DNA of 64,000 bases. It comes from Ancylobacter vacuolatus (GTDB taxonomy: Bacteria; Pseudomonadota; Alphaproteobacteria; Rhizobiales; Xanthobacteraceae). Positions 8,479 through 60,110 of this stretch are shown piece after piece (the stretch's first letter is position 1; every line of letters starts with the position of its first letter). The position numbers and the translations under genes were made by a program. The notes beneath the pieces are model-generated. The model saw only the letters and a program-made list of their open reading frames with translations, did no database searches and was not told the origin of the DNA. The DNA is taken from the NCBI RefSeq assembly GCF_030813595.1, contig NZ_JAUSUH010000001.1, forward strand, positions 496,001-560,000, written 5' to 3'.

Positions 8479-9287
8479 TTATCGCTGTCGGCAGCACTCG
8501 CCGGCACATAGGCCATCAGCCGCAGGTCCGGCCGTCCATCGATGGCAAAGGAGGAGAATTCCAGCCTGAGCTCGCCCACCACCGGGTGGCGGATGGTCTT
8601 GGCGCCCTCCCCGGTCATCTGCACGTCATTCTCTCCCCACAGCCGGGCGAAGTCACCACTGCGGGCGGAAAGCTCGGCGACCAGTTCGCCCGCCCGCTCG
8701 TCCTCGCCCACTCGGGCGGTCTCAGCGCGAAACGTCGCCACCAGGAACCGCGCCACCGCCTCCCAGTCGCCCTGCGCCGCGCGCGTGGCGGGGTCGAGGA
8801 ACATCCGCCGCAGGATGTTGCGCGCCTCGGGCGCCAGCGCCTCATAGTCGGCCAGCACGAGCCGGGCCGCCCGGTTCCAGCCGATAATGTCCCAGGTTGC
8901 GGTGGCGACGGTGGCGGGAATCGTCGGCATGGCGTCGAGAAAGCGCTGGAGCCGCGCAGATATGCCCTCCTGCGAAGGGGCGCTCGCCTTGGGGCGATGG
9001 CCGATGCCGACCAGGAACAGGTGCTCGCGCTCCGCTTCCGTCATCATCAGCGCCCGGGCGAGGCTGTCGAGCACGCGCGGCGAGGGCGCCCCGCCCCGCC
9101 CCTGCTCCAGCCATGTGTACCAGGTGGTGCTGATATGGGCCCGTTGCGCCACCTCCTCGCGCCGCAGGCCCGGCGTGCGGCGGCGGCCGCCGAATCCCAG
9201 CGCAGCGGCGTCGAGCCGCTGCCGGCGGTCCCTCAGGAACGCGCCGAGCCGGTGCTCGTCGCCCTCATCGTGCAGCATGGCAGTCAT
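8451..9287 (-). CDS. XRE-family regulator with MmyB-like ligand-binding domain
   Basis: A 278-residue protein. The N-terminal helix-turn-helix carries the family signature RTPGLRREEVAQRAHIS followed by YTWLEQGR. The C-terminal MmyB-like PAS-fold domain contains WDIIGWNRAA, FLDPATRA and HPVVGELRLE. Such proteins usually repress a neighbouring oxidoreductase gene and are released by a small hydrophobic ligand. It is divergent from an SDR gene with 78 bases between the starts. A palindrome that starts on its own start codon suggests autoregulation. Confidence 0.88.
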   Translation of the reverse strand: MTAMLHDEGDEHRLGAFLRDRRQRLDAAALGFGGRRRTPGLRREEVAQRAHISTTWYTWLEQGRGGAPSPRVLDSLARALMMTEAEREHLFLVGIGHRPKASAPSQEGISARLQRFLDAMPTIPATVATATWDIIGWNRAARLVLADYEALAPEARNILRRMFLDPATRAAQGDWEAVARFLVATFRAETARVGEDERAGELVAELSARSGDFARLWGENDVQMTGEGAKTIRHPVVGELRLEFSSFAIDGRPDLRLMAYVPASAADSDKISRLCNGA

Positions 9288-9300
9288 TATACCCGTATAA
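9287..9300. promoter_or_regulatory. TTATAC-CC-GTATAA palindrome at the MmyB/SDR divergent promoter
   Basis: Six-base arms separated by two bases form a perfect 14-base palindrome that abuts the start codon of the MmyB-type regulator in the divergent gap. It is the best operator candidate for that regulator; no binding data. Confidence 0.5.
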
Positions 9301-9365
9301 AGTCACTGCTTTAAGTGGGTAGAGTTTGGCCGTCATTCTCCTCGCCCACAAGAAGGAGATTAGTC

Positions 9366-10271
9366 ATGCAAGTATTTGTGACCGGCGCGACCGGCTTCGT
9401 CGGCTCGGCCGTAACCGCCGAACTACTGGCCCATGGGCACCGGGTTCTGGGTCTGGCCCGCTCGGACAGAAGCGCGGACCAACTCGTCCGCAGCGGCGCG
9501 CAGGTGCTGCGCGGCGATCTCGAAGCGCCGGACACGCTGCGCGAGGGCGCGCGGCTGTGCGACGCGATCCTCCATGTCGGCTTCATCCACGACTTCGCCC
9601 GCTTCGCCCACTCCTGCGCGATCGACACGGCGGCCATCGAGACAATCGGCGCCGCAATCGAGGGCACGGACAAGCCCTTCATTGTTACTGCCGGCCTCGC
9701 CGGGCTGGGCGTGCCCGGGCAGATGGTGAGCGAGGACGATGTTGCCCCGCCGCCCTCCGATCTCTACCCCCGCGCTTCCGACAGCGCCGCGCGGACCCTC
9801 TCCGCCCGCGGCATCCCGACCGCGATCCTGCGCCTGCCGCCATCAGTGCATGGCAAGGGCGACCATGGCTTCGTACCGATGCTGATCGAGCTGGCGCGGG
9901 CAAAGGGCCGCTCGGCCTATGTCGGCACCGGCGAAAATGCCTGGCCGGCGGTGCATGTGACTGACGCCGCACGCGCCTTCCGCCTCGCCCTGGAGCACGG
10001 CCCGAGCGCCGACACGTTCCACGCGGTGGCCGAACAGGGCGTGCCGTTCCGGGAGATCGCGCGGGCCATTGCCGTCGGCCTCGGCCTGCCCTGCGTGTCG
10101 CTGAGCCCGGAGGAGGCGGGCGGGCACTTCGGCTGGATGGTCCGCTTCGTCACGCTGGACCAGCCCGCCGACAGCGAACGGACCCGGCATGTTCTGGGCT
10201 GGCACCCTGCGGGACCGGAGCTTCTGACCGATATCGCCGAAGCCGGCTATTTCCCGGTCGCCGCCGGCTGA
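9366..10271 (+). CDS. NAD(P)-dependent SDR-family oxidoreductase (epimerase type)
   Basis: A 301-residue extended/atypical short-chain dehydrogenase. The N-terminal Rossmann motif is TGATGFVGS at residues 7-15. A YPRASDSAARTL segment takes the place of the usual YxxxK region, so catalysis may be atypical. The start at 9366 is set by AAGGAG ten bases upstream and by the Rossmann strand beginning right there; an earlier in-frame ATG at 9315 would add an unrelated leader. It is divergent from, and probably repressed by, the MmyB-type regulator. The substrate is unknown. Confidence 0.85.
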   Translation: MQVFVTGATGFVGSAVTAELLAHGHRVLGLARSDRSADQLVRSGAQVLRGDLEAPDTLREGARLCDAILHVGFIHDFARFAHSCAIDTAAIETIGAAIEGTDKPFIVTAGLAGLGVPGQMVSEDDVAPPPSDLYPRASDSAARTLSARGIPTAILRLPPSVHGKGDHGFVPMLIELARAKGRSAYVGTGENAWPAVHVTDAARAFRLALEHGPSADTFHAVAEQGVPFREIARAIAVGLGLPCVSLSPEEAGGHFGWMVRFVTLDQPADSERTRHVLGWHPAGPELLTDIAEAGYFPVAAG

Positions 10272-10280
10272 GACCGGTGG

Positions 10281-10315
10281 GGCGCCCGGCGCCAAGAAGT
10301 CCGTGCCCGGGCGCC
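10281..10315 (+). terminator. Hairpin after the SDR gene
   Basis: GGCGCCCGG (10281-10289) pairs with CCGGGCGCC (10307-10315), followed by TGACTTTG. It stands ten bases after the SDR stop and before the next promoter. Confidence 0.5.
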
Positions 10316-10351
10316 TGACTTTGTATCAATTCTTATCAACACCTTCCCTTG

Positions 10352-10398
10352 CGACAGGTCGCGACAATCCGGCACGTGGGCGGCACGCTTCTGCGACA
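10352..10398 (+). promoter_or_regulatory. CGACA tandem repeats, candidate OmpR-type operator of the molybdenum hydroxylase/sox operon
   Basis: CGACAGGTCG (10352) and CGACAATCCG (10362) are ten bases apart, with another CGACA at 10394. The same arrangement occurs upstream of the OmpR-type regulator at 19071-19128. A separate nine-base inverted repeat, GGCACGTGG/CCACGTGCC (10371-10379 and 10399-10407), overlaps this region and could be a second site. The repeats stand 50-96 bases before the first gene of the operon. Confidence 0.55.
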
Positions 10399-10447
10399 CC
10401 ACGTGCCTAGCCTCTCCCGGTCGACCAACTCCAGCCGGGAGGCCACC

Positions 10448-25867: not shown

Positions 25868-27382
25868 TCAGTTCTTCACCGTCTCCTCAAGGAAGAAGCG
25901 GCCGAGCGGGTTCTGGTGGAACTTGTCGATGTTCTTGCGGGTGACGTTGATATAGGGGCTGTAATAGAGGTCGATCCAGTTGACGTCGCCCTTGGCCAGC
26001 TTCTGCAGCGTGACATACATCGCCTCGCGCTTGGCCGGGTCGGTCTCCAGCCGGGCGGCTTCCACCAGCGCCTTGACCTCGTCGTTCTTGTAGCGGGTCA
26101 TGTAGTTCATGTTGGTGTCGTGGCCGAGCACGAAGGTGGTCTTCTGGTCGACATCGAGAATGTCGTTGGTCCAGTACATCACCGAGATGTCGTAATCGCC
26201 GGTCACCAGCATGTCCCAGCTCTGGCTGGGGTCGACCTTCTGCAGCGTCACGCCCACGCCCGCCTTGGCCAGCTGCTGCTGCACGAGAACGGCGATCTGC
26301 TCATCCGTCTCCTTGCCGGCATTGACGATGTAGTTCAGCGTGAGGCCGGAGGCGCCGGCATCGGCCAGCATCTTCTTGGCCTTTTCCGGGTCATAGGGGC
26401 GGCGCAGATTGTCGGCATAGTGATAGAGCGCGCCCTTGGGCACATAGGAATAGGCGACCTCGCCCAGCCCGAAGGTCGCGGCTTCGACGATCGCCTGCTT
26501 GTCGATCGCCATATCAAGCGCCTCGCGCACCTCCTTCTTCGCCAGCGCGCCGTGCTCATGGTTGATGAGCATGTGGTCCTCGCGGGTCGAGGGATCGCTG
26601 ATGACCTTGAGGTCCGGATTGGTCTTCAGCTCGGCGACGCGGGAGAACGGCACGGTGATGGCGGCATCCACCTCGCCGGCCTGGATCTTCAGCATGCGGG
26701 TGTTGTCGTCGGGAATGACCAGCCACTCCACGCCGTCGAGGCTGACCTTGGCGGCGTCCCAGTAATTGGGGTTCTTCTTCAGGATGATGCGGTCGCCGCG
26801 GCGCCACTCCACCAGGCTGAAGGCACCCGAGCCGACCGGCTTCTCGGCGAAGGTATCGGCGGCGGCGCCTTCCACCAGCTTCTTCGGCAGCACCGAGGCG
26901 TTGGGCAGCGCCATCATCGACAGGAACGGCACCGATTTGCCCTTCAGCTTCACCACCAGCGTCTTGGGGTCGGCGGCGGTGGCGGTGTCGATGACCTTGA
27001 AGCTGTCGCCCCAGAGCGAGCCCTTGTCGTCGCGGATGCGGATCAGCGAGAAGGCGGCGTCCTCGGCGGTGACGGGGGTGCCGTCGGAGAATTTCGCGTC
27101 GCGCAGCTTGAAGGTGTAGGTCAGCCCGTCATCGGAGATCGTCCAGCTTTCGGCGAGGCCCGGCACCAGCTTGGTGCCGCTGGCGTCCACCCGCACCAGC
27201 ACGTCGAACACGTTCGAAAACACCCAATTATCGACATTCTGCGCCGACTTGATCGGGTCGAAGGTGGTGGAATCCTCGTTGCGGGCGATGGTGAGAACGC
27301 CGGCGGCGTGGGCATAGCTCGTCGACAGCGAAAGAAGCGCGGCAAAGGCCGCGAGGCGGGATTTGCGGAAGGCGGTTTTCAC
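25868..27382 (-). CDS. Peptide/opine-type ABC transporter substrate-binding protein
   Basis: A 504-residue precursor with a Sec signal peptide (ends near SYAHA). The mature domain is of the SBP_bac_5 family (DppA/OppA): DSTTFDPIKSAQNVDNWVF, LAESWTISDDGLTYTFKLR and KFSDGTPVTAEDAAFSL. It would bind a peptide or similar compound in the periplasm. It is the last gene of a five-gene operon that starts with an iminopeptidase and contains two permeases and a fused ATPase. Confidence 0.92.
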   Translation of the reverse strand: MKTAFRKSRLAAFAALLSLSTSYAHAAGVLTIARNEDSTTFDPIKSAQNVDNWVFSNVFDVLVRVDASGTKLVPGLAESWTISDDGLTYTFKLRDAKFSDGTPVTAEDAAFSLIRIRDDKGSLWGDSFKVIDTATAADPKTLVVKLKGKSVPFLSMMALPNASVLPKKLVEGAAADTFAEKPVGSGAFSLVEWRRGDRIILKKNPNYWDAAKVSLDGVEWLVIPDDNTRMLKIQAGEVDAAITVPFSRVAELKTNPDLKVISDPSTREDHMLINHEHGALAKKEVREALDMAIDKQAIVEAATFGLGEVAYSYVPKGALYHYADNLRRPYDPEKAKKMLADAGASGLTLNYIVNAGKETDEQIAVLVQQQLAKAGVGVTLQKVDPSQSWDMLVTGDYDISVMYWTNDILDVDQKTTFVLGHDTNMNYMTRYKNDEVKALVEAARLETDPAKREAMYVTLQKLAKGDVNWIDLYYSPYINVTRKNIDKFHQNPLGRFFLEETVKN

Positions 27383-27401
27383 GGGTTTCTTCCTCTGGTG
27401 G

Positions 27402-29105
27402 TTAGCTGGCTAATTTCTCCACCGGCGGTGCCAGCAGGCGCCGCTCGGGATCGATGTCGGGAATGGCGGCGATGAGCGCGGCGGTGTAGGCCTCGCGCGG
27501 CCGCTCGAACACCTCGGCGCAGGGCCCCTCCTCGACGATGCGCCCGTGATGCATCACCACCACCCGCTCGCAGAGATGGCGCACGATGGCGAGGTCATGG
27601 GCGATGAACACCAGCGTCAGTTCCATGGTCTTCACCAGCCGCTGGAACAGCGCGACGATCTGCGCCTGGATGGTGACGTCGAGCGCGGCGACGCATTCAT
27701 CGGCGACGATCAGCCGGGGATCGACCGCCAGCGCCCGGGCAATGCCGGCGCGCTGGCACTGGCCGCCGGAGAGCTGGCGCGGCCGGCGCCCGGCAAGCTC
27801 GGGGTCGAGTTCCACCAGCGCCAGCAACTCCACCACCCGCGCCGGAATCGCGGCCGACGGCACCTTGCCCTGCACGCGCAGCACCTCCGTCAGCGTCTGG
27901 CTGATGGTAAGGCGCGGGTTGAGCGAGTTGAACGGGTCCTGGAACACCATGGCGGCTTGGTGCCGGATCTTCGCCAGCGCCACCCGGGGCTGCCCCCGCA
28001 GGGTGACGCCATCGAAAGTGACATGCCCATCGGCGATCGGGGTGAGGCCGAGCATCGCCCGCGCCAGCGTCGACTTGCCCGAGCCGCTCTCGCCGACAAT
28101 GCCGACCGTCTCGCCGGGCCGGATCTGCAGCGACACCCCCTTCACGGCACTAAAGCTGCGGCGCCGGCCGAACAGACCGCCGGGGAGCGGGTAGCGGATG
28201 TGAAGATCGTCGATCTCCACCAGCGGGCGCGCCGGCACGGCGGAGGGGGGCGGCAGGCTGGCCACTTTGGCCTCATCGGCCTGATCGTCCACCTCACTGC
28301 ACTCATTGGTCACGGGCATTGAGGGGTGGCTGGCGATCAGCGCCCGCGTATAGGCATGGGCCGGCCGGGCGAGCAGCGCGCGCTTGTCGCCGACCTCGAC
28401 CACCCGCCCCTGCCGCATCACGGCGATGCGGTCGCAGGTCTGCGCGACCACGCCGAGATCATGGGTGATCAGGATGATGGAAAGACCGCGCCTCTCGCGC
28501 AACTCCATGAGAAGACGCAGGATTTGTGCCTGGATGGTCACGTCGAGCGCGGTGGTGGGCTCGTCCGCGATCAGGATTTTCGGGTCGCAGGCCAGCGCCA
28601 CCGCGATCATCGCGCGCTGGCGCATGCCGCCCGAGAATTCATGGGGATAGGCGGCGAACTGGCGCGGCGGATCGGTGAATCCCACCTGCCCCATCAGCGC
28701 GATCGCCTCCGCCTTCGCCGCCGCCCGGTCCAGCCGGCGGTGAAAGCGCAACCCCTCAACAATCTGATCGCCGACCCGCATCAACGGGTCGAGATGGCTG
28801 CTAGGGTTCTGAAATATCATGCCTATTTCGGCACCGCGCACCTGCTGCATCTGCGCTTCGCTGAGCGCCAGCAGGTCGCGCCCGCCCATCCTCACCTCGC
28901 CCTGGGTGACGGAGATGGCGCGCGAGGGCAGCAATTGCACCAGCGAGCGGCACAGCAGGCTCTTGCCCGACCCGCTCTCGCCGACAAGGCCGAGAATCTC
29001 GCCGGGCGCAAGATCCAGCGAGACCCGATCAAGCAGGGTGCGCGGGCCCTGGTCGCCCCGCACCACCACGGAAAGATCGCGGATCGACAGCAGCGGGGCG
29101 CTCAT
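27402..29105 (-). CDS. Fused double ATPase of a peptide-type ABC importer (DppD-DppF fusion)
   Basis: A 567-residue protein made of two ATPase halves that are separate in E. coli DppD/DppF. Each half has a Walker A GESGSGKS, the signature FSGGMRQR or LSGGQCQR, and its own Walker B ([11 protein letters not shown] and [11 protein letters not shown]). The Glu-to-Cys change in the second Walker B (DEC instead of DEP) affects the residue after the catalytic Glu, not the Glu itself. Its start overlaps the upstream permease gene. Confidence 0.93.
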
Positions 29106-29926
29106 TCATGCACCCCCATCGCTTCGCCGAGCGCGTCGCCGATCATCGAAAAACCGAAGGCCAGCAAAACGATAGACAGGCCGGGGAACAGGGTGATCCA
29201 CCAGGCCTGGGAGAGAAATGCCTGGCCTTCCGCCACCATGATGCCCCACTCCGCCGTGGGCGGCTGGACGCCGAGGCCGAGATAGGAGATCGCCGCCCCC
29301 GAGAGCAGCACCAGCACCGCGTCCGACATGCAGAACACCAGCGAGCCCGCCACCGAATTGGGAAGCAGGTGCCGGAACAGCACGCGCGGGCGCGAAAAGC
29401 CAAGGCTCACCGCCGCCACGGCGTAATCGGCGTTCTTCAGGACGAGGATCTGCGCCCGGATCAGCCGCGCATAGGATACCCAGCCGACCAGCGCCATGGC
29501 GATATAGAAGCTGGAGAGCCCCGGCCCGAGAATGGCGATGATGGAGAGCATCAGCACCAGGAAGGGGAAGGCGAGGATGATGTCGATCAGCCGCATCAGC
29601 ACCGCATCGATGAGGCCGCCGAAAAAGCCGGCGATCGCGCCGATCACGGTGCCGATAACCAGCGGGAAAAACACGCCAATCACCGCCATCTGCAGGTCGA
29701 CCCGGGCGCCGTAGATGATGCGCGAGAGGATGTCCCGGCCGAAATTGTCGGTGCCGAACGGGTGCGCCAGCGAGGGTGACTGGATGCGCGCCGCCCCGTC
29801 CTGGAAGATCGGGTCATAGGGAGCGATCAGCGGCGCGGCGAGAGCGGCAAGCACAAAGCCACCGACAATCACCAGCCCGGCGATGAGCGTGCGGTTCACG
29901 CGCTGGGTGGAGACGGGCGCGCTCAC
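29102..29926 (-). CDS. Peptide-type ABC importer permease (DppC family)
   Basis: A 274-residue inner-membrane permease with an N-terminal helix, the DppC-type motif HPFGTDNFGRDILSRIIYGAR and a coupling loop around AAVSLGFSRPRVLFRHLLPN. It overlaps both neighbouring genes by four bases, so translation of the transporter genes is coupled. Confidence 0.92.
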   Translation of the reverse strand: MSAPVSTQRVNRTLIAGLVIVGGFVLAALAAPLIAPYDPIFQDGAARIQSPSLAHPFGTDNFGRDILSRIIYGARVDLQMAVIGVFFPLVIGTVIGAIAGFFGGLIDAVLMRLIDIILAFPFLVLMLSIIAILGPGLSSFYIAMALVGWVSYARLIRAQILVLKNADYAVAAVSLGFSRPRVLFRHLLPNSVAGSLVFCMSDAVLVLLSGAAISYLGLGVQPPTAEWGIMVAEGQAFLSQAWWITLFPGLSIVLLAFGFSMIGDALGEAMGVHE

Positions 29927-30861
29927 AGCTTCACCCTGGGATCGGCGGCGACGGTGGCGATGTCGGCGAGGAAGTTTACCAGCACGGTGGCGCAGGCGAA
30001 CACCATGGCGATGCCCTGCACCACCATGTAATCGCGCGAGAAAATGGCGCGCACCAGCAATTGCCCCATGCCAGGCAGGGCGAAAATGCTCTCGATCACC
30101 ACCGTGCCGCCGATCAGCCAGCCGATGTTCACCGCCAACAGGTTAATGGTGGGGGCGATGGAATTGGGCAGTACATGCCGCCAGAACACGATGGATTCGG
30201 GCATGCCGCGCGCCCGGGCGGCGGTGGCGACGTCCGATTTCAGCCAGTCGACCATGGCCGCGCGCAGCGAGCGCAGCAGCACGGTGGACAGCGACAGGGC
30301 GATGGTGAGCGCGGGTAGAACCAGATGCGCCAGCTTGTCGCCCAGCGTCTCGCCATAGCCGGAGACGGGGAAGATGGGAAATCTCACCGCCAGCAGCATG
30401 ATCAGCATCAGCCCCAGCCAGAAGGGGGGAAAGCCGATGCCGAAAGTGGAGACGAAGCGGATCGCGTGGTCGACCGGCCGGCCCTGGTTGCGGGCGGCAA
30501 TCGCCGCGAGCGGCACGGCGATGAGGATGGAAAGCAGCACGCTGCACAGGATGAGCGCGAAGGTCGGCTCGATGCGGGTGCCGATCAACCGCAGCACGTC
30601 GATGCGGTAGACGATCGACATGCCCATCTCGCCATTGGCGAGATTGCGCAGGAAATACAGATATTGCAGCCACAAAGGCTCATCGAGGCCGAACTGCGCG
30701 CGGATATTGGCGATGGCGGTCGGCGTGGCGCGCGCGCCCAGCAGCACCCGCGCCGGATCGCCGGGGATCATCCGCACCAAGATGAAGGTGATGAGGCTGA
30801 CGCCGAACACGACCGGCACGAATTGCAGCGGCCGCATCAGGATAAAGGAATAGCGGTGCAT
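29923..30861 (-). CDS. Peptide-type ABC importer permease (DppB family)
   Basis: A 312-residue permease with the DppB-type N-terminus (FVPVVFGVSLITFILVRMIPG), six helices and the coupling loop ARARGMPESIVFWRHVLPN. It lies two bases after the iminopeptidase stop and overlaps the DppC-type gene. Confidence 0.92.
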   Translation of the reverse strand: MHRYSFILMRPLQFVPVVFGVSLITFILVRMIPGDPARVLLGARATPTAIANIRAQFGLDEPLWLQYLYFLRNLANGEMGMSIVYRIDVLRLIGTRIEPTFALILCSVLLSILIAVPLAAIAARNQGRPVDHAIRFVSTFGIGFPPFWLGLMLIMLLAVRFPIFPVSGYGETLGDKLAHLVLPALTIALSLSTVLLRSLRAAMVDWLKSDVATAARARGMPESIVFWRHVLPNSIAPTINLLAVNIGWLIGGTVVIESIFALPGMGQLLVRAIFSRDYMVVQGIAMVFACATVLVNFLADIATVAADPRVKL

Positions 30862-30863
30862 CT

Positions 30864-31751
30864 CTATCGCGATACGCTGGCGAGGAAGTCGAGCAGAGGC
30901 GGGTAATAGCCGGCCGGGTTCTCGTAAAACGGCATATGGCTGGCATTGGCGACGACATTGATCCGCGCCTGCGGCAGAGCGTTCTTCATCCGCATGGCGC
31001 AGGCCGGGGTCAGCTCGTCGCGCTCGCCCACCACGATCAGGGTCGGCACGCTGATGCGCGGCAGGTCGGGAATGCGGTTCCAGTCCTTCAGATTGCCGGT
31101 ATAGAGGAACTCATTCGGGCCCTGCATGGTGCCATAGGGGCCCATGTTCCAGTCGGCCAGCGAGCGCTGCACCGGCGCCGGCCATTCCGGCAGGCGGCAG
31201 ACATGGCGGTAGTTCAAAAGGGTGATGGCCGCCTGGTATTCGGGATGATCGAAAGTGCCGGCGGCCTCATGCTTCTGCATCATCGCCACCGTTTCCGGCC
31301 CAAGCGCGGCGCGCAGCTTCTCCAGCTCGCTCACCAAGTGCGGCATGTCCGCCACCGTGTCGGCGAGGATCAGGCTTTTCAGCGCGTGGGGGTAGGCCAA
31401 CGCATAGTCGATGGCGAGCCAGCCGCCCCAGCTATGGCCGAGCAGATGCACCTTGCCGAGTCCGAGTGCGGTGCGCACCGTCTCGGTCTCCTCGACATAG
31501 CGTTCGATGGTCCACAGTGACGGATCCGTCGGCCGGTCGGCGGCGCCTGTGCCGAGCTGGTCGAAGGCCACAACACGGTAGCCCTGATCGATCAGGCAGG
31601 AATGCGCCTCGCGCAGATAGTCGCAGGCCAGCCCCGGCCCACCATTGAGCAGGAAAACGGTCTCCTCGCCGGTGCCGAAGGAATAAGCCACCACGCGGTG
31701 CTCCCCAAGGCTCACCTCATGCCGCTCATGCGGCTCAATCTCCCGCCACAT
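30864..31751 (-). CDS. Proline-iminopeptidase-family alpha/beta hydrolase (first copy)
   Basis: A 295-residue cytoplasmic hydrolase of peptidase family S33. The nucleophile elbow is GHSWGG, the acid lies in GERDELTP and the His in NASHMPFYE. The oxyanion motif is NGGPG, where most iminopeptidases have HGGPG. It is the first gene of an operon with a peptide-type ABC importer, so the imported compound is likely its substrate. It diverges from the LuxR solo. An 18-base operator lies 66 bases upstream of its start. Related genes next to PipR-type regulators are called pipA. Confidence 0.88.
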   Translation of the reverse strand: MWREIEPHERHEVSLGEHRVVAYSFGTGEETVFLLNGGPGLACDYLREAHSCLIDQGYRVVAFDQLGTGAADRPTDPSLWTIERYVEETETVRTALGLGKVHLLGHSWGGWLAIDYALAYPHALKSLILADTVADMPHLVSELEKLRAALGPETVAMMQKHEAAGTFDHPEYQAAITLLNYRHVCRLPEWPAPVQRSLADWNMGPYGTMQGPNEFLYTGNLKDWNRIPDLPRISVPTLIVVGERDELTPACAMRMKNALPQARINVVANASHMPFYENPAGYYPPLLDFLASVSR

Positions 31752-31817
31752 CGTCCGGCCCGTCCCTGCTCAACAAAAAGGCATGCTCAATTCGTAGAGA
31801 AAACGGGAGTCCAAACC

Positions 31818-31835
31818 AGCTATCAGAAGTGATAG
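31818..31835. promoter_or_regulatory. Lux-box-like operator, copy 1 (divergent pip/luxR promoter)
   Basis: AGCTATCAGAAGTGATAG contains inverted half-sites TATCA/TGATA around GAAG. Outer arms CCAAACC (31811-31817) and GGTTTGG (31835-31841) extend the symmetry. It lies 66 bases before the start of the first iminopeptidase gene and 32 bases before luxR. The exact complement recurs at 32652-32669. Confidence 0.75.
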
Positions 31836-31867
31836 GTTTGGCCGCAGAAGCGGGGGACGCTCGGGCA

Positions 31868-32629
31868 ATGGGTGCCGATATCGGAATGATCGAACAGCGG
31901 CTGGACGCGGCCACGACGCTGGGCGCGCAGGTCGATCTCTTGTTTGAAGCCATGCACGGCTTCGGCTTCGACGCGCTGATCTACGACTACACCCCGGCGC
32001 GCTTCGACCTCGATGGCGCCCAGATGATGCCGTCCGTGCTGGAGCTGCGCAATGTGGACGAATCCATGCGCGACTACTGGTTCGGCCAGGGTTATTTCCG
32101 CCTCGATCCGGTGCAGAAGGTGGCGCTCGGCACCACACGGCCCTTCGTCTGGAACTATGACGCACGGGCCGAGACCCTGATCCGGGCCTTCATGAACGAG
32201 GACAGCGCCCCGGTGGCCGATTTCCTCGCCGCGCGCGGCATGAGCGCCGGCGTCACCGTGCCGGTGCACATGCCCGGCGGCGACTACGCTACCATCACCG
32301 GCATACGCTGCGGCGATAGGGGTTTCGCCGAGCGCGAGGCCAAGCAGTGCCTGGGCGAATTCGGCCTGCTGGCGCACCTGTTCCAGCACGCCGCCCACGG
32401 CGCGCTACGGGAAGACCGCCGGCTCGACGGCATACCCCGCCTGACCGCCCGTGAGCGCGAATGCCTGCGCCATGCTGCGGAGGGACTATCCGCGAAGGAG
32501 ATTTCGCGCGCGCTCGGCCGCTCCGTGCCCACCGTGGTGATGCATCTCAACGCCGCGATGCGCAAATTGCAGGCGAAGAACCGCACCCAGGCGGCGGTGC
32601 GGGCGGCGCGCCTGCGCCTGCTGGATTGA
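31868..32629 (+). CDS. LuxR-family solo regulator of the plant-signal (OryR/PipR) type
   Basis: A 253-residue protein with an autoinducer-binding domain and a C-terminal LuxR helix-turn-helix ([26 protein letters not shown]). Aligned with TraR at a constant offset of ten, Asp70, Pro71 and Trp85 are conserved (D80, P81, W95). Trp57 is replaced by Met67 and Tyr61 by Trp71. This pair of substitutions defines the solos of plant-associated bacteria that do not answer to acyl-homoserine lactones. No luxI gene lies near. The start at 31868 is preferred because an earlier in-frame ATG (31829) lies inside the operator. It is flanked by two iminopeptidase genes. Confidence 0.9.
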
Positions 32630-32651
32630 CCCTGCGCCATCCCCTTCCCGC

Positions 32652-32669
32652 CTATCACTTCTGATAGCT
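32652..32669. promoter_or_regulatory. Lux-box-like operator, copy 2 (upstream of second iminopeptidase)
   Basis: CTATCACTTCTGATAGCT is the exact reverse complement of copy 1. It lies 63 bases before the second iminopeptidase start. Relative to the gene it serves, it has the same orientation and nearly the same spacing as copy 1 relative to the first iminopeptidase. Confidence 0.75.
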
Positions 32670-32732
32670 GCCGCACCCTTCGCCGACTGCCTATTTTCCT
32701 CGCCATCGACACGGGCGGCAGGGAGATCAGGC

Positions 32733-33662
32733 ATGAACGCAGTGGGCAGCGTGGAGGGGTTCCTGTCCTTCCGGGGATATCAGACCTGGTACCGCGTGAC
32801 CGGGGCCCTCGACAGCCCGCGCCTGCCGCTGGTGGTGGCGCATGGCGGCCCCGGCTGCACCCATGACTATGTCGATTCCTTCAAGGATATCGCCGCGCTC
32901 GATGGCCGCGCCGTCATCCATTACGACCAGCTCGGCAATGGCAAGTCGACCCACCTGCCGGAGAAGGGGCCGGATTTCTGGACCGTCGACCTCTTTCTGG
33001 CCGAGCTTGACGCGCTGCTCGCCCATCTGGGCATCGCTCAGCGCTACGCCTTTCTCGGCCAGTCCTGGGGCGGCATGCTGGGCGCCGAGCACGCAGTGCG
33101 GCGGCCCGAAGGGTTGAAAGCGCTCGTCATCGCCAATTCCCCCGCCAACATGCACACTTGGGTCGCCGAAGCGAACCGCCTGCGCCGCGACTTGCCCGCC
33201 GAGGTGCAGTCGACGCTTCTCGTGCACGAGGCGGCCGGCACGCTGTCCCATCCGGACTACATCAAGGCCTCAATGGCGTTCTACGACCGCCATGTATGCC
33301 GGGTGACGCCCTGGCCGGAGGAGGTCGCCCGGACCTTCGCGGCGATGGACGCCGATAACACGGTCTATCGCCACATGAACGGACCAACCGAGTTCCACGT
33401 CATCGGCACGATGAAGGACTGGACCATCGAAGACCGGCTGCCGCAGATCGCCGCCCCGACGCTGCTGATATCAGGTGCGCATGACGAGGCCACGCCCGAA
33501 GTCGTGCGGCCCTATCGTGAGAAGGTGCCTGATATACGCTGGACGTTGTTTCCCGACTCCAGCCACATGCCGCATGTCGAGGAAAAGGAGGCCTGCCTGA
33601 AGGTGGTCTCCGACTTCCTCCGGCAGCATGATGCGAGCGAGCCGGCCAGCCCGGCACCGTGA
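32733..33662 (+). CDS. Proline-iminopeptidase-family alpha/beta hydrolase (second copy)
   Basis: A 309-residue S33-family hydrolase with the canonical oxyanion motif HGGPG, the nucleophile elbow GQSWGG, the acid in GAHDEATP and the His in SSHMPHVE. It is a diverged paralogue of the hydrolase on the other side of the luxR gene; both share the NYRHVCR/YDRHVCR-type cap segment. It follows luxR after 103 bases that contain operator copy 2, so it is probably activated by that regulator. The ribosome site is GGGAG. Confidence 0.88.
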
Positions 33663-33737
33663 GGGCCTAGCCTCCCCCGCGTGGGTTTTCGCCGCCACCC
33701 GATTCCTGCTCCGGAACCTGGGGTCGCTGCCGCCACT

Positions 33738-33758
33738 TGTCCCCGACCAAAGGGGACA
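33738..33758 (+). promoter_or_regulatory. Hairpin covering the ribosome site of the acyl-CoA-dehydrogenase-like gene
   Basis: TGTCCCC (33738-33744) pairs with GGGGACA (33752-33758), and the right arm contains the ribosome site five bases before the ATG. The structure could limit translation. The rest of the 101-base gap shows nothing else. Confidence 0.4.
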
Positions 33759-33763
33759 CGCAC

Positions 33764-34894
33764 ATGCTCGACATCGCGGCCAACCGCACCAGGGGACATG
33801 AATCGCTGCTCGGCGATCTGCGCCGCCTCGCCCGCCACACAGCAGCGCTGGACGAGGACGGCAGCTTCCCGACGCAGGACATTGCCCGCCTCGCCGCCAT
33901 TGGCGCCCTCACCGCGCCCTTCGGCACGAGCGAGGCGGCCGGCATCGCCATCGGCGCGCCGGACGAACTGGCCGAAGTGCTGCGCCTCGTCGGCCATGGC
34001 GGCCTGCCGCTTGGGCGGCTTTACGAGGGACACGTCAATGCGGCGGCGCTGATTATCCGCTACGGCACGCGCGAACAAATTCGGCGTGCGCAAAGGCGCG
34101 CGACCGAGGGGGCGCTGTTCGGCGTGTGGAACACCGAGGGCGTAGAGGGGGTGCGGCTGGTGCGCGAGGGTGACGCGCTGCGCCTTGTCGGCAGCAAGAC
34201 TTTCGCCTCCGGCGCCGGCCATGTCGCCTGCCCGCTGATTACCGCCCGTGACCCGGACGGCGCATGGCGGATGGTGCTGCCTCAACTGGACGACGCTGAT
34301 CGCGCTGACCTCTCCGACTGGCGGGCTCACGGCATGCGCGCCTCGGCCACCGGCAGCTTCCGCTTCAGCGGGCTGGCCGTGGCGCCGGAGGATATTCTCG
34401 GCGGCGCGGGTGACTATCACCGGCAGCCGCATTTCTCCGCCGGTGCCTGGCGCTTCTGCGCCGTCCAGCTCGGTGGCATTGAGCGGCTGGTCGACGAGGC
34501 GAAGGACTTCCTGCACGCCAACGGCCGGCACGAGGACCCCCATCAGCTCGCGCGCATGGGCGAGGCGCTGATTGCCGCCGAGACGGCCCGGCTGTGGGTT
34601 GGGCAAGCCGCCCGTCTGGCCGAGGCGGCCGGGGTGGCCGACACGCCGGAAGCAGCGGAGCGTGCCGTCGCCTATGTGAACCTAGCGCGTTCGGCGGTAG
34701 AGCGCAGCGGGCTCGAGACGCTGGAGCGGGTGCAGCGTTCGGTCGGCCTCGCCGGCTTTCTGCGCACCCATCCGCTTGAGCGCCTATGCCGGGATCTTGC
34801 CACCTATCTGCGCCAGCCGGCGCCGGACCGCGCCTTGTGCGCCGGCGCTGCGCATGCTTTCCGCGACGAGGCAACGGGAGACCTCTGGCGATGA
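33764..34894 (+). CDS. Acyl-CoA-dehydrogenase-like flavoprotein
   Basis: A 376-residue protein with the fold pattern of acyl-CoA dehydrogenases: a helical N-terminal domain, a central beta domain with the segment FGVWNTEG followed by LVGSKTFASGAGH, and a C-terminal helical domain. The family's usual catalytic Glu region is not recognisable, so the reaction may differ (for example hydroxylation or nitrogen oxidation). It is translationally coupled to the PIG-L deacetylase gene (ATGA). It is part of a four-gene cluster of unknown pathway, with a methyltransferase and a glycosyltransferase. Confidence 0.8.
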   Translation: MLDIAANRTRGHESLLGDLRRLARHTAALDEDGSFPTQDIARLAAIGALTAPFGTSEAAGIAIGAPDELAEVLRLVGHGGLPLGRLYEGHVNAAALIIRYGTREQIRRAQRRATEGALFGVWNTEGVEGVRLVREGDALRLVGSKTFASGAGHVACPLITARDPDGAWRMVLPQLDDADRADLSDWRAHGMRASATGSFRFSGLAVAPEDILGGAGDYHRQPHFSAGAWRFCAVQLGGIERLVDEAKDFLHANGRHEDPHQLARMGEALIAAETARLWVGQAARLAEAAGVADTPEAAERAVAYVNLARSAVERSGLETLERVQRSVGLAGFLRTHPLERLCRDLATYLRQPAPDRALCAGAAHAFRDEATGDLWR

Positions 34895-35628
34895 GCCTGA
34901 CCCTCGGCGCGGCGTTGGAAGCGATGACCACCTTCCCGGAAATCGAGCCGGCGGATTTCGTCCGTCGTGGCTTCCTCGTCGTCGCGCCGCATCCCGACGA
35001 TGAAAGCCTGGGCTGCGGCGGCCTCATCGCCGCCTGTCGCGCGGCCGGCCTTCCGGTCACCATCCTCATCGTCAGCGATGGCGCCGGCTCGCATCCAGGC
35101 TCGACCCTGTTTTCGGCCCCGATTCTCGCCAAGCTGCGCCAGCAGGAGGCGATCATGGCCGCGGCGGCGCTCGGCGTCGGGCCATCGCATGTGCATTTCG
35201 CCGGCCTGCCCGATCGCCATGTGCCGATGACAGGGCGCGAGGCGGAACAGGCCTGCGATCGCATCGCCACCCTCGCCGCCGCTGCGGACGTGGTCGCCGT
35301 CACCTGGCGGCACGACCCGCATGGCGACCACAAGGCCAGCTTCGCGCTGGCACGGGCGGCGGTGCGGCGCGTGCCCGGCGCGACACTTTGGGAATACCCG
35401 ATCTGGGGACTCACCCTGCCGCCGCAAATGCCGATGCCGGGGGAGTCCCCGCGCGGCGTGAGGGTCCGTATCGCCGATCACCTGCCGGCGAAGCGGCGCG
35501 CCATCGCCGCCCATGCCTCGCAGACCACGGCGCTGATCGTCGACGATCCCAAGGGGTTCCGGCTCACGCCGGGCATGTTGGCGCGTTTCGACACGGACTG
35601 GGAAACCTTCATCGAGTGCCCGCTATGA
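34891..35628 (+). CDS. PIG-L/LmbE-family deacetylase
   Basis: A 245-residue zinc-dependent deacetylase. The metal motif PHPDDE lies at residues 34-39, and the third ligand is in the segment DPHGDHKAS. Family members remove acetyl groups from N-acetylglucosaminyl lipids, mycothiol precursors or antibiotics. Here the neighbours (methyltransferase, glycosyltransferase, acyl-CoA-dehydrogenase-like) suggest tailoring of a glycoconjugate. The start overlaps the upstream stop and the stop overlaps the next start. Confidence 0.9.
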   Translation: MSLTLGAALEAMTTFPEIEPADFVRRGFLVVAPHPDDESLGCGGLIAACRAAGLPVTILIVSDGAGSHPGSTLFSAPILAKLRQQEAIMAAAALGVGPSHVHFAGLPDRHVPMTGREAEQACDRIATLAAAADVVAVTWRHDPHGDHKASFALARAAVRRVPGATLWEYPIWGLTLPPQMPMPGESPRGVRVRIADHLPAKRRAIAAHASQTTALIVDDPKGFRLTPGMLARFDTDWETFIECPL

Positions 35629-36200
35629 ATCCCTCCCTGCCCACCACCTATTTCGACACACTCTATGAACGCACGCCCGACCCATGGTCGTTCGAGACCA
35701 GTCTCTATGAGCAGGCGAAATATACGGCGACCCTGTCCGCCCTACCCCATCCGCGCTACGTGCGGGCGCTGGAGATCGGCTGTTCCATCGGCGTGCTGAC
35801 CGAGCGGCTGGCTTCCCGTTGCGATGAGCTGATCGCGATGGAACCGGCGGCCGTCGCATTGGAACAGGCGCGCCAGCGCTGCCGCGGTCTCGCCCAGGTC
35901 GCTTTCCTGCAGGCCAGCGCACCTGCCGCGTGGCCCCCTGGAACGTTCGACCTCATCCTGTTGTCGGAGGTTATTTACTACCTTAGCCCACCTGACGTGT
36001 CGCGGCTCGCGGCGCGGGTGACGGGTGCGCTCCGCCCCGGCGCCCATGTCGAGCTGGTTCATTGGGTGCGGGAGACGGATTATCCGCTCTCAGGCGATGA
36101 CGCTGCCGAGCTCTTCATCGCGGCGACCGCCGGCACCCTGGCGCCGATAACTCAGCAGCGCACCGAGGATTATCGCCTGGACTTGCTCGTCGCCGCGTGA
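35625..36200 (+). CDS. NodS-like SAM-dependent methyltransferase
   Basis: A 191-residue class I methyltransferase. The start has the NodS-type pattern YFDTLYERTPDPWSFETS with SLYEQAKYTATL; the SAM loop is LEIGCSIGVLT. NodS N-methylates a deacetylated chito-oligosaccharide, so a methyltransferase of this type directly behind a deacetylase fits methylation of an amine freed by that enzyme. No nodABC genes are present, so the product is not a Nod factor. Its 3' end overlaps the convergent glycosyltransferase gene by 111 bases. Confidence 0.87.
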   Translation: MNPSLPTTYFDTLYERTPDPWSFETSLYEQAKYTATLSALPHPRYVRALEIGCSIGVLTERLASRCDELIAMEPAAVALEQARQRCRGLAQVAFLQASAPAAWPPGTFDLILLSEVIYYLSPPDVSRLAARVTGALRPGAHVELVHWVRETDYPLSGDDAAELFIAATAGTLAPITQQRTEDYRLDLLVAA

Positions 36201-37370
36201 GGCACGATTGAGCGTCCGCAGCAGTTCGCGAGCGGCGATGAGATGGAGTTCCATCTGCGAGGGCCGCAACGGACGCGGCGCGAGATGCGGGCTGCGTGCC
36301 TCCGCCCTCGCCCAGGCCTCGCCGAATCGCAGACGCGTCGGGCTCTCCAGCGTGCCGGCCGGCAAGGCCAGACGGTGCTCCCATGCCCGCGCGTCAAAAC
36401 CTTCGGCGACGGCCCGCCGCAGGCGAAGCCGCAGCACCATGCGATGCAGGGCAAGGGGAAGCGCCTCCAGCTTGTCGTCGCCAGGCAGATCGTGGTTTTC
36501 GAGCCGCTGGCGCAGCGTGGCGGCGCAACCGCCACTCGCCCGCCCCTCCAGCCGCGCCGAGGTGGTGACGAGGATGTCGGGGTCGTGCCGGATCGGGATG
36601 TCATGGCGCGCCAACGCCTCTGCCAGCGCCCGGTCCTCGCCAACGTCGACCTCCGGCTGGCCACCAATCCGGCGATAGGCGGCAAGGCTCACGGCGAAGC
36701 TGGCGCCGGATGCGGTCCAGTGGTTCGGCCAGGGATCGTGCGGCAGCGGGTCGAGCCGCCCAGCCAGCGCCAGCAGCGCCGCCTCATAAGCGGCCTCAAT
36801 CCGGCGGCGGCGCCGGAGCGCCGATGGCAGCGCCGCCGCTTCGACCGGATCGAGCTCGAAGCGTCCGGCGACGGCCCCGCACCCGGCCGAAAGCCCGGCG
36901 AGATTGCGCGCCAGCCAGTCCGGCGCCACCACCGTATCGGCATCCGTGGTCAGCAACGCCCCCTGAGTCCCGCCGCGCTCGACCCAGGTGCCGGCAAGGT
37001 CGAGCGCCAGCCCGCGTGCAAGGCCGGCATTGGCATGGGCGGGCGGAACATCGAGGCTGAGAACCCGATGCGGCAGGCCGGCAGCGGCAAGGAAGGTTCG
37101 CGCCCGGGGCACGGTATGGTCGCGGCAATTATTCGCCAGAACCAGCACCCCGAAGTCTTCGCAACCGCCCTTTGCCTGGCGCTGTCCGGCAAGCGCGGCG
37201 AGACAGCGCTCGATTCGCCCTTCTTCGTCGCGGGCAGGCACCGCGACCACCACGCGCGGCGCGAAGCGCGAGAAGCTGGCCTGCTGTTCGAGCAGGCGGG
37301 TGAGACCAAGACGGAGCGGGGAGATGGATGGCGACACGGAAGACCTCTGGAGCACAGCGCGAACGCTCAT
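36090..37370 (-). CDS. Family 2 glycosyltransferase
   Basis: A 426-residue GT2-type enzyme: VVVAVPARDEEGRIERCL at the start of the GT-A fold, LLTTDADTVV with the DxD metal motif, and VGEDRALAEALARHDI in the acceptor part. No membrane helix is visible, so it is cytoplasmic or peripheral. It is convergent with the methyltransferase gene and overlaps it by 111 coding bases, an arrangement that fixes the pair together in evolution. The sugar donor and acceptor are unknown. Confidence 0.82.
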   Translation of the reverse strand: MSVRAVLQRSSVSPSISPLRLGLTRLLEQQASFSRFAPRVVVAVPARDEEGRIERCLAALAGQRQAKGGCEDFGVLVLANNCRDHTVPRARTFLAAAGLPHRVLSLDVPPAHANAGLARGLALDLAGTWVERGGTQGALLTTDADTVVAPDWLARNLAGLSAGCGAVAGRFELDPVEAAALPSALRRRRRIEAAYEAALLALAGRLDPLPHDPWPNHWTASGASFAVSLAAYRRIGGQPEVDVGEDRALAEALARHDIPIRHDPDILVTTSARLEGRASGGCAATLRQRLENHDLPGDDKLEALPLALHRMVLRLRLRRAVAEGFDARAWEHRLALPAGTLESPTRLRFGEAWARAEARSPHLAPRPLRPSQMELHLIAARELLRTLNRASRGDEQVQAIILGALLSYRRQGAGGRRDEELGSVIA

Positions 37371-55795: not shown

Positions 55796-56623
55796 CTAAC
55801 CGATCCGTGCCGGCGGCGGCCGGCCGCCGACGAGCAGAAGGTCACTCTCATCCTTCAGGCTCACGCCGGTGAGCTGCCGCGCCAGCGCCTCCTTCAGCAG
55901 CCAGGCGAGCTTGAAGGCGGCTAGCTCGTGCGAAAGCCCCTCGCCGCGCACATTGGAAATGCAGTTGCGCTCGGCATCCGAGCGCCCGGCGCGCGGGGCG
56001 AAGGTGAGGTAGAGGCCGAGGCTGTCCGGTGAGGACAGGCCCGGCCGCTCGCCGATCAGCACCACGCAGGCGCTGGCCCTCAGCGCTTCGCCCACTTCGT
56101 CCCCAAGCGCCACGCGCGCCTGGCTGGCGATGCACACCGGCCCGACGCTCCAGCCCGCCTCGGCGATCCGCGCCTTGAAGGCGGTGAGGAACGGCACCGC
56201 CTGCGCATGGATCGCAGTGGAGGACAGCCCGTCGGCAACGACGAGGGCGACATCCACCGGAGCCCCGGCCCGCGACGCCAGCAGCGCCCGGCTTTCCTCC
56301 GACAGCCGGCGCCCGAGATCGGGGCGGCGTAGATAGGCATCGCGCGCCGGGGCGGCGGAGGCCAGTTCGAGCGTCTCGAAGCCCAGCGCCGCGATATCGC
56401 CTGCCATGCGGGCCGACTCGAAGGGGAGATGCACCGCATCGCGCGCCTGCGCATGGGCGAGCGCGAAGCGCAGCACCTCCCGTGTCGGCATGCCCGTGCC
56501 CGCCCGCCCCAAGGCGATGCGCGCGGGCGTGACGCCGGCCAGCCGGCGCCAGCTATCCTCGATCACCGCAGGTTCGCTCACAGAATCGGCCGGGCGATCG
56601 CCGTCCGTCGCCGCGTCGCTCAT
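55796..56623 (-). CDS. eutC: Ethanolamine ammonia-lyase small subunit
   Basis: A 275-residue protein matching EutC: ARIALGRAGTGMPTREVLRFALAHAQARD near the start (split by variation), DVALVVADGLSSTAIHAQAVPFL, and the C-terminal CISNVRGEGLSHELAAFKL. It forms, with EutB, the adenosylcobalamin-dependent lyase that converts ethanolamine to acetaldehyde and ammonia. Its start overlaps the eutB stop by four bases. No eut microcompartment genes are present. Confidence 0.95.
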   Translation of the reverse strand: MSDAATDGDRPADSVSEPAVIEDSWRRLAGVTPARIALGRAGTGMPTREVLRFALAHAQARDAVHLPFESARMAGDIAALGFETLELASAAPARDAYLRRPDLGRRLSEESRALLASRAGAPVDVALVVADGLSSTAIHAQAVPFLTAFKARIAEAGWSVGPVCIASQARVALGDEVGEALRASACVVLIGERPGLSSPDSLGLYLTFAPRAGRSDAERNCISNVRGEGLSHELAAFKLAWLLKEALARQLTGVSLKDESDLLLVGGRPPPARIG

Positions 56624-59054: not shown

Positions 59055-60110
59055 ATGTCCGATCAGGAAAAGCTCGACAAGCTGCGGGCGAAATATGCCG
59101 GCGTCGGCGGCGGGGTCGTTTATGACGAAACCTTCAAGCGCGTCGCCGAGATGCAGTTCAAAGATGGCGAAAAGCGCGTCTGGCCCTGGGCCGGCGCCGC
59201 TACATTGCTTGACGCCCCCTATCGCCCGGACGTGCAGGAACAGGCCGATTTCGGCGGGCTCGACATGGCGCTTATCGGCGTGCCGATGGATCTCGGCGTC
59301 ACCAACCGCGCCGGCGCCCGGCTCGGCCCGCGCGCCGTGCGCGCCATCGAACGCATCGGGCCCTATGAGCACGTGCTGAACATGGTGCCCGCCGCCGAGG
59401 CGAAGGTGGCGGATATCGGCGACGTGCCGTTCCGCTCGCGCTTCAGCCTCGATTCCTGCCATGAGGACATCGAGGCCTTCTACAAGAAGATCGTCGCGGC
59501 CGGCGTCATCCCGCTCTCGGTCGGCGGCGATCATTCGATCACTGGCTCCATCCTCAAGGCGGTGGGCGAGACGCGCCCGGTGGGAATGCTGCACATCGAC
59601 GCCCATTGCGACACGTCTGGCACCTATGAGGGCGCCAAGTTCCACCATGGTGGCCCCTTCCGCACCGCAGTGCTGGACGGTGTGCTCGACCCCACTCGCA
59701 CCATCCAGATCGGCATTCGCGGCGGGGCGGAATTCCTGTGGGAGTTCTCCTATGAGAGCGGCATGACCGTGATCCACGCCGAGGAGGTCACCGGCATGGG
59801 CGTGCCCGCCATCATCGCCAAGGCGAAACAGGTGCTCGGCGACGGCCCGGTCTATGTCTCCTTCGACGTCGACAGCCTCGACCCCGCCTTTGCCCCCGGC
59901 ACCGGCACGCCTGAGATCGGCGGCCTCACCTCGCGCGAGGTGCTGGAACTGCTGCGCGGGCTGAACGGGCTCGATGTGATCGGCGGCGACGTGGTGGAAA
60001 TCGCGCCGCAATATGACGCCACCTCCAACACCGCCCATGCGGCGGCGCAGGTTCTGTTCGAGATCTTCTGCATGGCGGTGACGGCGCACAAGGCACGGAA
60101 GGGTTCCTGA
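59055..60110 (+). CDS. Agmatinase-family ureohydrolase
   Basis: A 351-residue Mn-dependent ureohydrolase. The metal-ligand motifs are GGDHS, DAHCD and SFDVDSLDP. An N-terminal extension of about 45 residues makes it longer than E. coli agmatinase. It releases urea from a guanidino compound, such as agmatine or guanidinobutyrate; the choice cannot be made from sequence. The next gene starts on its stop and encodes a nitrilase-family amidohydrolase, which fits a guanidino or carbamoyl-amine pathway. Confidence 0.9.
   Translation: MSDQEKLDKLRAKYAGVGGGVVYDETFKRVAEMQFKDGEKRVWPWAGAATLLDAPYRPDVQEQADFGGLDMALIGVPMDLGVTNRAGARLGPRAVRAIERIGPYEHVLNMVPAAEAKVADIGDVPFRSRFSLDSCHEDIEAFYKKIVAAGVIPLSVGGDHSITGSILKAVGETRPVGMLHIDAHCDTSGTYEGAKFHHGGPFRTAVLDGVLDPTRTIQIGIRGGAEFLWEFSYESGMTVIHAEEVTGMGVPAIIAKAKQVLGDGPVYVSFDVDSLDPAFAPGTGTPEIGGLTSREVLELLRGLNGLDVIGGDVVEIAPQYDATSNTAHAAAQVLFEIFCMAVTAHKARKGS

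Follow-up and report, generated by a model that had tools for sequence, protein, structure and literature searches.

A probable Pip-type (PAB-LuxR solo) module with paired putative operators in Ancylobacter vacuolatus

In a stretch of 64,000 nucleotides from Ancylobacter vacuolatus (here called the window), positions 25868-33662 hold a single divergent module, in which a compact importer operon is set against luxR and a second iminopeptidase gene. We interpret it as a complete Pip (PAB-LuxR solo) module, which would import and sense a compound and then induce the importer together with the peptidases that destroy the ligand, and we place the probability of this reading at about 0.8. The Ancylobacter module, a well-preserved copy, extends to a further host a known system that is commonly associated with plants, and does not amount to a new kind of system.

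Gene content and organization

All seven genes lay where the initial annotation had placed them, and its description of a complete peptide-type ABC importer and of iminopeptidase genes on both sides of luxR was borne out. The importer operon, on the reverse strand, comprises an iminopeptidase, two permeases, a fused double ATPase and a binding protein. Its first gene, pip1 (30864..31751), encodes a proline-iminopeptidase-family hydrolase in the AapA position, which scores 266.5 bits against TIGR01250 (NCBIfam; cut-off 167.65 bits) and carries the motifs GHSWGG, GERDELTP and SHMP, with NGGPG replacing HGGPG. It is followed by a DppB/OppB-type, AapB-like permease (29923..30861; PF00528 and PF19300), a DppC/OppC-type permease (29102..29926; PF00528 and PF12911) and an ATPase of 567 aa with two fused ABC domains (27402..29105; PF00005 in two stretches and oligo_HPY), in which Walker A is found at residues 42 and 338. 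The last gene (25868..27382) encodes the AapF-like periplasmic binding protein of the importer (PF00496, E 4.4e-100), with 343 of 482 residues (71%) identical to AapF (PDB 7kz8/7kz9; E 1.6e-234). Since the DppC/OppC-type permease gene overlaps its neighbour by 4 bp on each side and the other gaps measure 2 and 19 bp, the genes from pip1 to the binding protein are considered one operon.

On the forward strand, luxR is placed at 31868..32629; the open reading frame list has it start at GTG 31829, and ATG 31868 was judged likelier. The second iminopeptidase-family hydrolase, pip2 (32733..33662, forward strand), occupies the PipA position, also exceeds the TIGR01250 cut-off (266.7 bits) and matches PDB 7a6g with an E-value of 7.5e-140. 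The module sits on a large contig and is apparently chromosomal.

Relation to known Pip systems

The Pip system of Pseudomonas sp. GM79 (pipR, pipA and aapA-F) has the same gene set, divergent layout and pair of peptidases, with the importer genes behind a peptidase and an inverted-repeat site upstream of each peptidase. The two peptidase paralogues had been regarded as special to the present locus, which does not hold, since GM79 pipR is likewise flanked by two peptidases, aapA and pipA, in an arrangement resembling nesR (PMC4981722). In comparison with L055, a GM79-type locus whose own binding protein scores 1028.8 bits against AapF, the identities are 69% for pip1 (AapA position), 66% for pip2 (PipA position), 67% for the permease, and 64 and 61% for the ATPase halves. 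Judged by sequence, the importer belongs to the AapB-F type, and the peptidases correspond to AapA and PipA by position and identity. The ATPase is one fused gene here and two genes in GM79, and the regulator differs from the GM79 type, being 43% identical to that of L055 and carrying Met/Trp rather than Trp/Trp at the positions discussed below.

The nesR-layout loci of Rhizobium (e.g., pRL9 of R. johnstonii 3841, L108) share with the module its gene order, the single ATPase gene, the operator pair and the Met/Trp signature. Their regulators are, however, approximately 60% identical, and many Rhizobium plasmids carry such a locus, whereas the module is on a large contig. We know of no ligand for either the Rhizobium loci or the Ancylobacter module. 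OryR, XccR, XagR, XocR and PsrR are also LuxR solos adjoining pip, with Met and Trp at positions 57 and 61 as a review describes them; their published layouts vary, and they are likened here by descriptions, not by sequence.

The regulator

The regulator has an autoinducer-binding domain (PF03472, E 1.5e-25) and a LuxR-type HTH (PF00196, E 1.7e-15), both above cut-off, and it is the one Autoind_bind protein of the genome. Met and Trp occupy the positions of TraR W57 and Y61 (M67/W71 when numbered from ATG 31868, as initially annotated; 80/84 from GTG 31829), and the pair is invariant in all 18 aligned proteins. It had also been called the signature of OryR and PipR alike, which is right for the Met/Trp proteins OryR and PsrR and wrong for PipR, given as Trp/Trp at 57/61 in PMC7301841 and PMC4981722. 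Among the 37 clade rows, Met/Trp is found in 33 and Trp/Trp in four, including L055-L058, and neither pair occurs in any of 28 other rows; with Met/Trp, the regulator stands apart from the Trp/Trp PipR subgroup. The OryR pocket pattern (57M, 61W, 70D, 71P, 72V, 73Q, 85W, 101L, 105L, 110M, 113G, 129T; PMC3821632) is matched at 11 of 12 positions, as mapped with fixed offsets of 10 and 15 and not by structure, the exception being position 101, where V116 stands instead of Leu. In a careful tree of 32 clade rows and 24 other LuxR proteins, none of them OryR, NesR or PipR as such, the regulator falls inside the OryR/PipR/NesR ("PAB") clade with support 100/100, as the initial annotation had proposed. 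At least one pip gene is present in the examined stretch for 36 of the 37 clade rows (L061 is the exception), and two adjoin the regulator here. On these sequence grounds the regulator is a member of the clade and the locus a Pip/PAB-LuxR system.

It is highly improbable that the protein detects acyl-homoserine lactones released by neighbours. The LuxR fold does retain D70, P71, W85 and G113, but positions 57 and 61 are replaced, 73 and 105 are of the PAB type, the tree separates the regulator from all 24 other LuxR proteins, and neither GM79 PipR nor OryR responded to such lactones (PMC4981722). A PF00765 search for a LuxI partner gave no match in this genome, and none in the control genomes either.

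A specific response to HEHEAA, as in GM79 PipR, is also rather unlikely, though far less so. The similarity of the binding protein to AapF (PDB 7kz8/7kz9) speaks for it, as does the structure of a component required for HEHEAA import reported in the review; against it stands the Met/Trp pair, for the Met/Trp member PsrR is described as unresponsive to HEHEAA in PMC7301841. The initial annotation had pointed to HEHEAA by analogy with PipR; given the behaviour of PsrR, it is not to be carried over as the ligand, and a response of the present regulator to it is possible but not predicted.

Putative operators

Upstream of each peptidase gene there is one 20-bp inverted-repeat site, in the same orientation and at a similar distance. 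Operator A (AGCTATCAGAAGTGATAGGT; 31818..31837, forward strand, core 31820-31835) is centred 76.5 bp before pip1, and operator B (32650..32669, reverse strand, core 32652-32667), identical to A at 19 of 20 positions, is centred 73.5 bp before pip2; in GM79, the corresponding distances are 91.5 bp for aapA and 71.5 bp for pipA. The core is CTATCA-N4-TGATAG (16-letter form CTATMANNNNTKATAG), as against ACCTAG-type boxes in L055-L058.

The perfect core occurs at just these two sites in the 5.02-Mb genome, with no site at one mismatch. If two mismatches are tolerated, two matches within the window arise in 12 of 100 shuffles, so that the weight rests on both operators being perfect. Beyond the window, 16 of 17 homologous loci carry the pair as well, and at each of their 32 sites none of 500 gap-letter shuffles reached the match. 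This conservation shows that the site is under selection and does not tell which protein occupies it. A wider regulon was considered and rejected, since the genome has 20 further two-mismatch sites and a reversed control pattern gives 27, as expected of chance. As the core is perfect only at the module, the direct regulon is probably limited to it. Operator A also lies just upstream of luxR, overlapping its listed GTG start at 31829, and the regulator may thus control its own gene. The operator pair offers a sequence handle for locating direct regulons in other genomes.

Distribution and conservation

The complete gene order is repeated in 15 of 17 homologous loci, and because of this repetition the arrangement is not a matter of chance. 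Of the incomplete loci, L032 ends at a contig edge and L033 (Salipiger) consists of luxR-pip2 with the importer distant. Within Ancylobacter the module is patchy (11 of 30 genomes); several species names in the genus hint at plant sources. In genome G600, potF is 96% identical and the regulator is absent, and the place keeps a lone pip1 with no operator. It is therefore a remnant and not an empty site, which argues for loss of the module there rather than fresh insertion elsewhere.

Between families, that is, towards Rhizobium and L055, the regulator has diverged further than the importer and peptidases. As a general rule this fails within Ancylobacter, since in five of six loci (L017-L021 and L023) conservation of the fused ATPase is lower than that of the regulator. 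A link to ethanolamine, considered since HEHEAA is an ethanolamine derivative, was likewise dropped: eutBC (ethanolamine ammonia-lyase) is located approximately 22 kb away in the same window, and EutB is encoded in 30 of 30 genomes of the genus, with or without the module, so the proximity is uninformative.

The distribution also bears on whether the circuit might serve to scavenge nutrients, as a switch that responds to small amides or peptides and has no particular connection with plants, "plant-responsive" then being a sampling bias. We hold this to be the less probable view, albeit one with a real minority chance. It is favoured by the host genus with its 11 carriers, by homologues in Salipiger and in an alphaproteobacterium of another order (G572), by operators confined to the module and by the response of GM79 PipR to protein hydrolysates too (PMC4981722). 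The hydrolase neighbour varies as well, being a D-aminopeptidase on Shinella pShin-11 and a carbon-nitrogen hydrolase on Nitratireductor pOM-1, but the former has no operator B before it. Rhizobium, moreover, accounts for 123 of the 153 plasmid records with a homologue, many of the plasmid rows listed name plant hosts, and the Ancylobacter names weigh on the same side. The scavenging and plant-sensing readings are compatible and do not exclude each other.

Proposed mechanism

For the Pip module proposed here, ligand import, activation and signal destruction are carried over from the GM79 work. The binding protein and the ABC importer would take up a small peptide-like or amide compound, which, itself or as its product, would bind the LuxR protein in the cytoplasm. 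The liganded regulator would then occupy operators A and B and switch on pip1 with the importer, and pip2. Induction of the importer would be a positive feedback on uptake, and destruction of the ligand by the two peptidases, putatively by direct cleavage, a negative one, so that expression would track supply. In GM79, loss of the transporter is reported to have abolished the response to the signal, and mutants in the peptidases to have over-responded. Published tests of the PAB members PsrR and PsaR2 are described as showing no regulator-dependent pip induction. Given 43% identity to the GM79-type regulator and the difference at the W57 position, the ligand and even the sign of regulation could differ from those of GM79.

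Biological significance

Going by its name, HEHEAA consists of ethanolamine in amide linkage to N-(2-hydroxyethyl)glycine, which is an imino acid as proline is; such an amide would be a signal that iminopeptidases themselves cleave. The Pip circuit might then at root be a self-contained switch governing the uptake and hydrolysis of N-substituted glycine amides and similar imino-type peptides, and not a plant sensor, an idea that we offer as speculative and rather doubtful. If true, the receptor would have been retuned to local substrates across bacterial families, with the handling machinery kept fixed. Among the questions that the review raises are what most PAB LuxR solos bind in nature and how their pip genes act. 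To our knowledge, Ancylobacter is a culturable genus not known as pathogenic. With a compact copy of the module, an operator core found at the module only and a patchy presence in the genus, it is a clean system in which to ask whether the circuit perceives plants or just what the bacterium eats.

Organization of the module

One divergent module fills window 25868-33662. Its leftward genes run from pip1 (30864-31751), which encodes an iminopeptidase-family hydrolase and stands at the head of the importer genes, through two permeases and an ATPase carrying two ABC domains in a single 567-aa protein, to a family-5 binding protein ending at 25868. Because two junctions are 4-bp overlaps and the remaining gaps are 2 and 19 bp, these genes are read as one operon. 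In the rightward direction luxR, encoding a LuxR-type regulator, is followed by pip2 (32733-33662), the second iminopeptidase-family hydrolase gene. Both hydrolases keep the G-x-S-x-G-G, acidic and SHMP motifs, and each is 32-38% identical to the opposite peptidase of the fetched homologous loci, so that pip1 and pip2 are taken to be old paralogues.

Beside pip2 (33737-37370) lie genes for an acyl-CoA-dehydrogenase-like protein, a PIG-L deacetylase and, judged by eye, a likely methyltransferase and glycosyltransferase; this block is missing at the corresponding place in two genomes (G022 and G590). The ethanolamine ammonia-lyase genes eutC and eutB are found at 55796-58008 on the minus strand. 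EutB occurs in 30/30 genomes of the genus, and a special link to the module was therefore rejected. Near them, on the plus strand (59055-60910), an arginase-family protein gene precedes a carbon-nitrogen hydrolase gene, possibly an agmatine or ureido-amide pathway.

Operators

Operator A (AGCTATCAGAAGTGATAGGT, 31818-31837) is centred 76.5 bp from the pip1 start codon and operator B (GCCTATCACTTCTGATAGCT, 32650-32669) 73.5 bp from that of pip2. Since B is a near-identical reverse complement of A, both have the same orientation relative to the peptidase gene that each precedes. The window contains two perfect copies of the core CTATCA-N4-TGATAG; with two mismatches tolerated, two window matches were also reached in 12/100 shuffles, and therefore the weight rests on both cores being perfect. 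These are the only perfect matches in the whole genome, where one-mismatch sites number 0 and two-mismatch sites elsewhere 20, versus 27 for a reversed control pattern. A TATTTT seen by eye at 32692-32697, approximately 35 bp beyond the centre of operator B, is a possible -10 element, and operator B would overlap the -35 region of that promoter.

Of the 17 other loci first compared, 16 (L017-L032) share the operator pair. At each of their 32 sites the match was reached by 0/500 gap letter shuffles, the reference being the window's own 20-mer and close relatives among the loci not being independent. The exception, Salipiger L033, has a single box-like palindrome before luxR. Loci fetched later were scored on 12 fixed core letters: 12 and 12 in L073, 12 and 10 in both L063 and L059, 11 and 11 in L108 (pRL9 of R. 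johnstonii 3841), 11 and 9 in L098, 9-10 in the GM79-type loci L055-L058 and 8-9 in enterobacterial Rahnella L106 and L060. The L055 boxes, ACCTAGCGTTTCTTATAGGT and ACCTAGCTGTTTTGCTAGTT, agree with the sites at -91.5 (aapA) and -71.5 (pipA) given for Pseudomonas sp. GM79 in its report (PMC4981722). In Shinella L105 site A is kept (11) and site B is not (6); here, on pShin-11 of Shinella sp. HZN7, an annotated D-aminopeptidase gene (8848-10410) occupies the pip2 position without operator B, while operator A and pip1 remain. No site scored above 8 of the 12 core letters in Nitratireductor L107 and L061. In L107 (pOM-1 of Nitratireductor sp. OM-1) a divergent regulator with Met/Trp (M/W) at TraR positions 57/61 has a pip gene paired with a carbon-nitrogen hydrolase gene on one side and, farther off, an importer on the other, and there is no clear module-type operator.

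The regulator and its relatives

The GTG start of luxR proposed by ORF calling falls inside operator A. With ATG 31868 as the start, the Met67/Trp71 numbering of the initial annotation is reproduced. PMC3821632 distinguishes, in the ligand pocket, core positions that are conserved from a patch specific to PAB proteins; with positions mapped by fixed offsets rather than by structure, the regulator agrees with the OryR pattern there at 11/12 positions (M67, W71, D80, P81, V82, Q83, W95, L120, M125, G128 and T144), the sole mismatch being V116 (L in OryR). The 5.02-Mb host genome (29 contigs) encodes one Autoind_bind protein. A LuxI search gave no match, yet none of its control genomes matched either; the window LuxR is likely a solo.

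Placement among the plant-responsive solos, also proposed initially, held in the phylogeny: a carefully built 56-row tree (32 vs 24 rows) puts the regulator inside its PAB-type family with support 100/100. In a quick tree of 65 rows, a single branch (SH-aLRT 100) separates the 37 family rows from the others. The outgroup consisted of the best-scoring loci from a PF03472 search of 101 genomes of the order, with two PDB chains added in the quick tree only; family rows were mostly gathered with a profile built on the same family, L098 being found via PF03472 alone. At positions 57/61 of the quick tree, the family rows comprise 33 M/W and 4 W/W, and the 28 others 24 W/Y, three with a gap then Y, and one Y/Y. 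All four W/W rows come from a single genus and the L055 binding protein matches AapF of GM79 (1028.8 bits), so these rows are taken as putatively of the GM79 PipR type. The trees contain no named OryR, NesR or PipR sequences; the grounds for the proposed link to those names are the signature, the pocket pattern, synteny and the AapF anchor. One M/W clade member (L061 9982-10740, genome G544) lacks both a pip gene and a module-type importer in 19 kb, which departs from the published rule placing pip next to every PAB luxR.

The regulator's closest relatives come from Ancylobacter (82-93% identity, five named species) and Xanthobacteraceae strain 501b (97%); identity falls to 58-61% in Rhizobium and kin and 47% in Salipiger. 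For Rhizobium and kin the other proteins reach 79-81% (pip1), 77-79% (pip2), 77-81% (AapB-like permease), 73-75% (binding protein) and 66-68% (ATPase). Comparison with L055 gives 43% for the regulator, 69% for pip1, 66% for pip2, 67% for a permease, 70% for the binding protein, and 64% and 61% for the ATPase halves. The receptor is the part that has diverged furthest between families; within Ancylobacter it is not the most changed part, the ATPase being less conserved in 5/6 loci.

Distribution and movement

Regulator carriers comprise 6/198 genomes of the GTDB family, every one in the host genus, 11/30 genomes of that genus and 12/398 of a phylum sample (two from the host genus). Among 72,556 plasmid records 153 have a regulator match, 123 of them Rhizobium. 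Among the 11 carriers in the genus, the module adjoins potF in six; the remaining five have their potF match on a separate contig or approximately 150 kb off, or show none at E 1e-100. Of the module, genome G600 keeps only pip1 (L068 12695-13576, 89% identical), flanked by potF and the gene that follows; the importer, the regulator, pip2 and the operator are missing. The 18-kb stretch holds no operator-like site above 9/12, and none just before pip1. This remnant suggests that pip1 has its own use. In G586 the module is present and pip1 is missing. From this distribution we conclude that the module has probably been lost piecemeal, and moved or acquired more than once.

Implications

The Pip system itself, its two-peptidase form and the boxes are already known. 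Ancylobacter, Starkeya and Xanthobacter are named in neither of two main texts on the known system, and a literature search for Ancylobacter with LuxR gave a single paper that mentions each word once; the module in an Ancylobacter host thus appears unreported in the searchable literature, most subscription papers lying outside the search. According to the GM79 report, mutants lacking a peptidase gave exaggerated responses to macerate and peptone, the strongest being that of the double mutant, and its authors proposed a loop of import, sensing and signal destruction (PMC4981722). Judged from the name of the compound alone, the iminopeptidases could conceivably cleave HEHEAA, the ethanolamine-derived PipR signal. 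As the parts correspond, the best reading here is that the Ancylobacter module would run a GM79-like loop of import, sensing and signal destruction, which, given the operator count in the genome, probably controls directly little besides the module.
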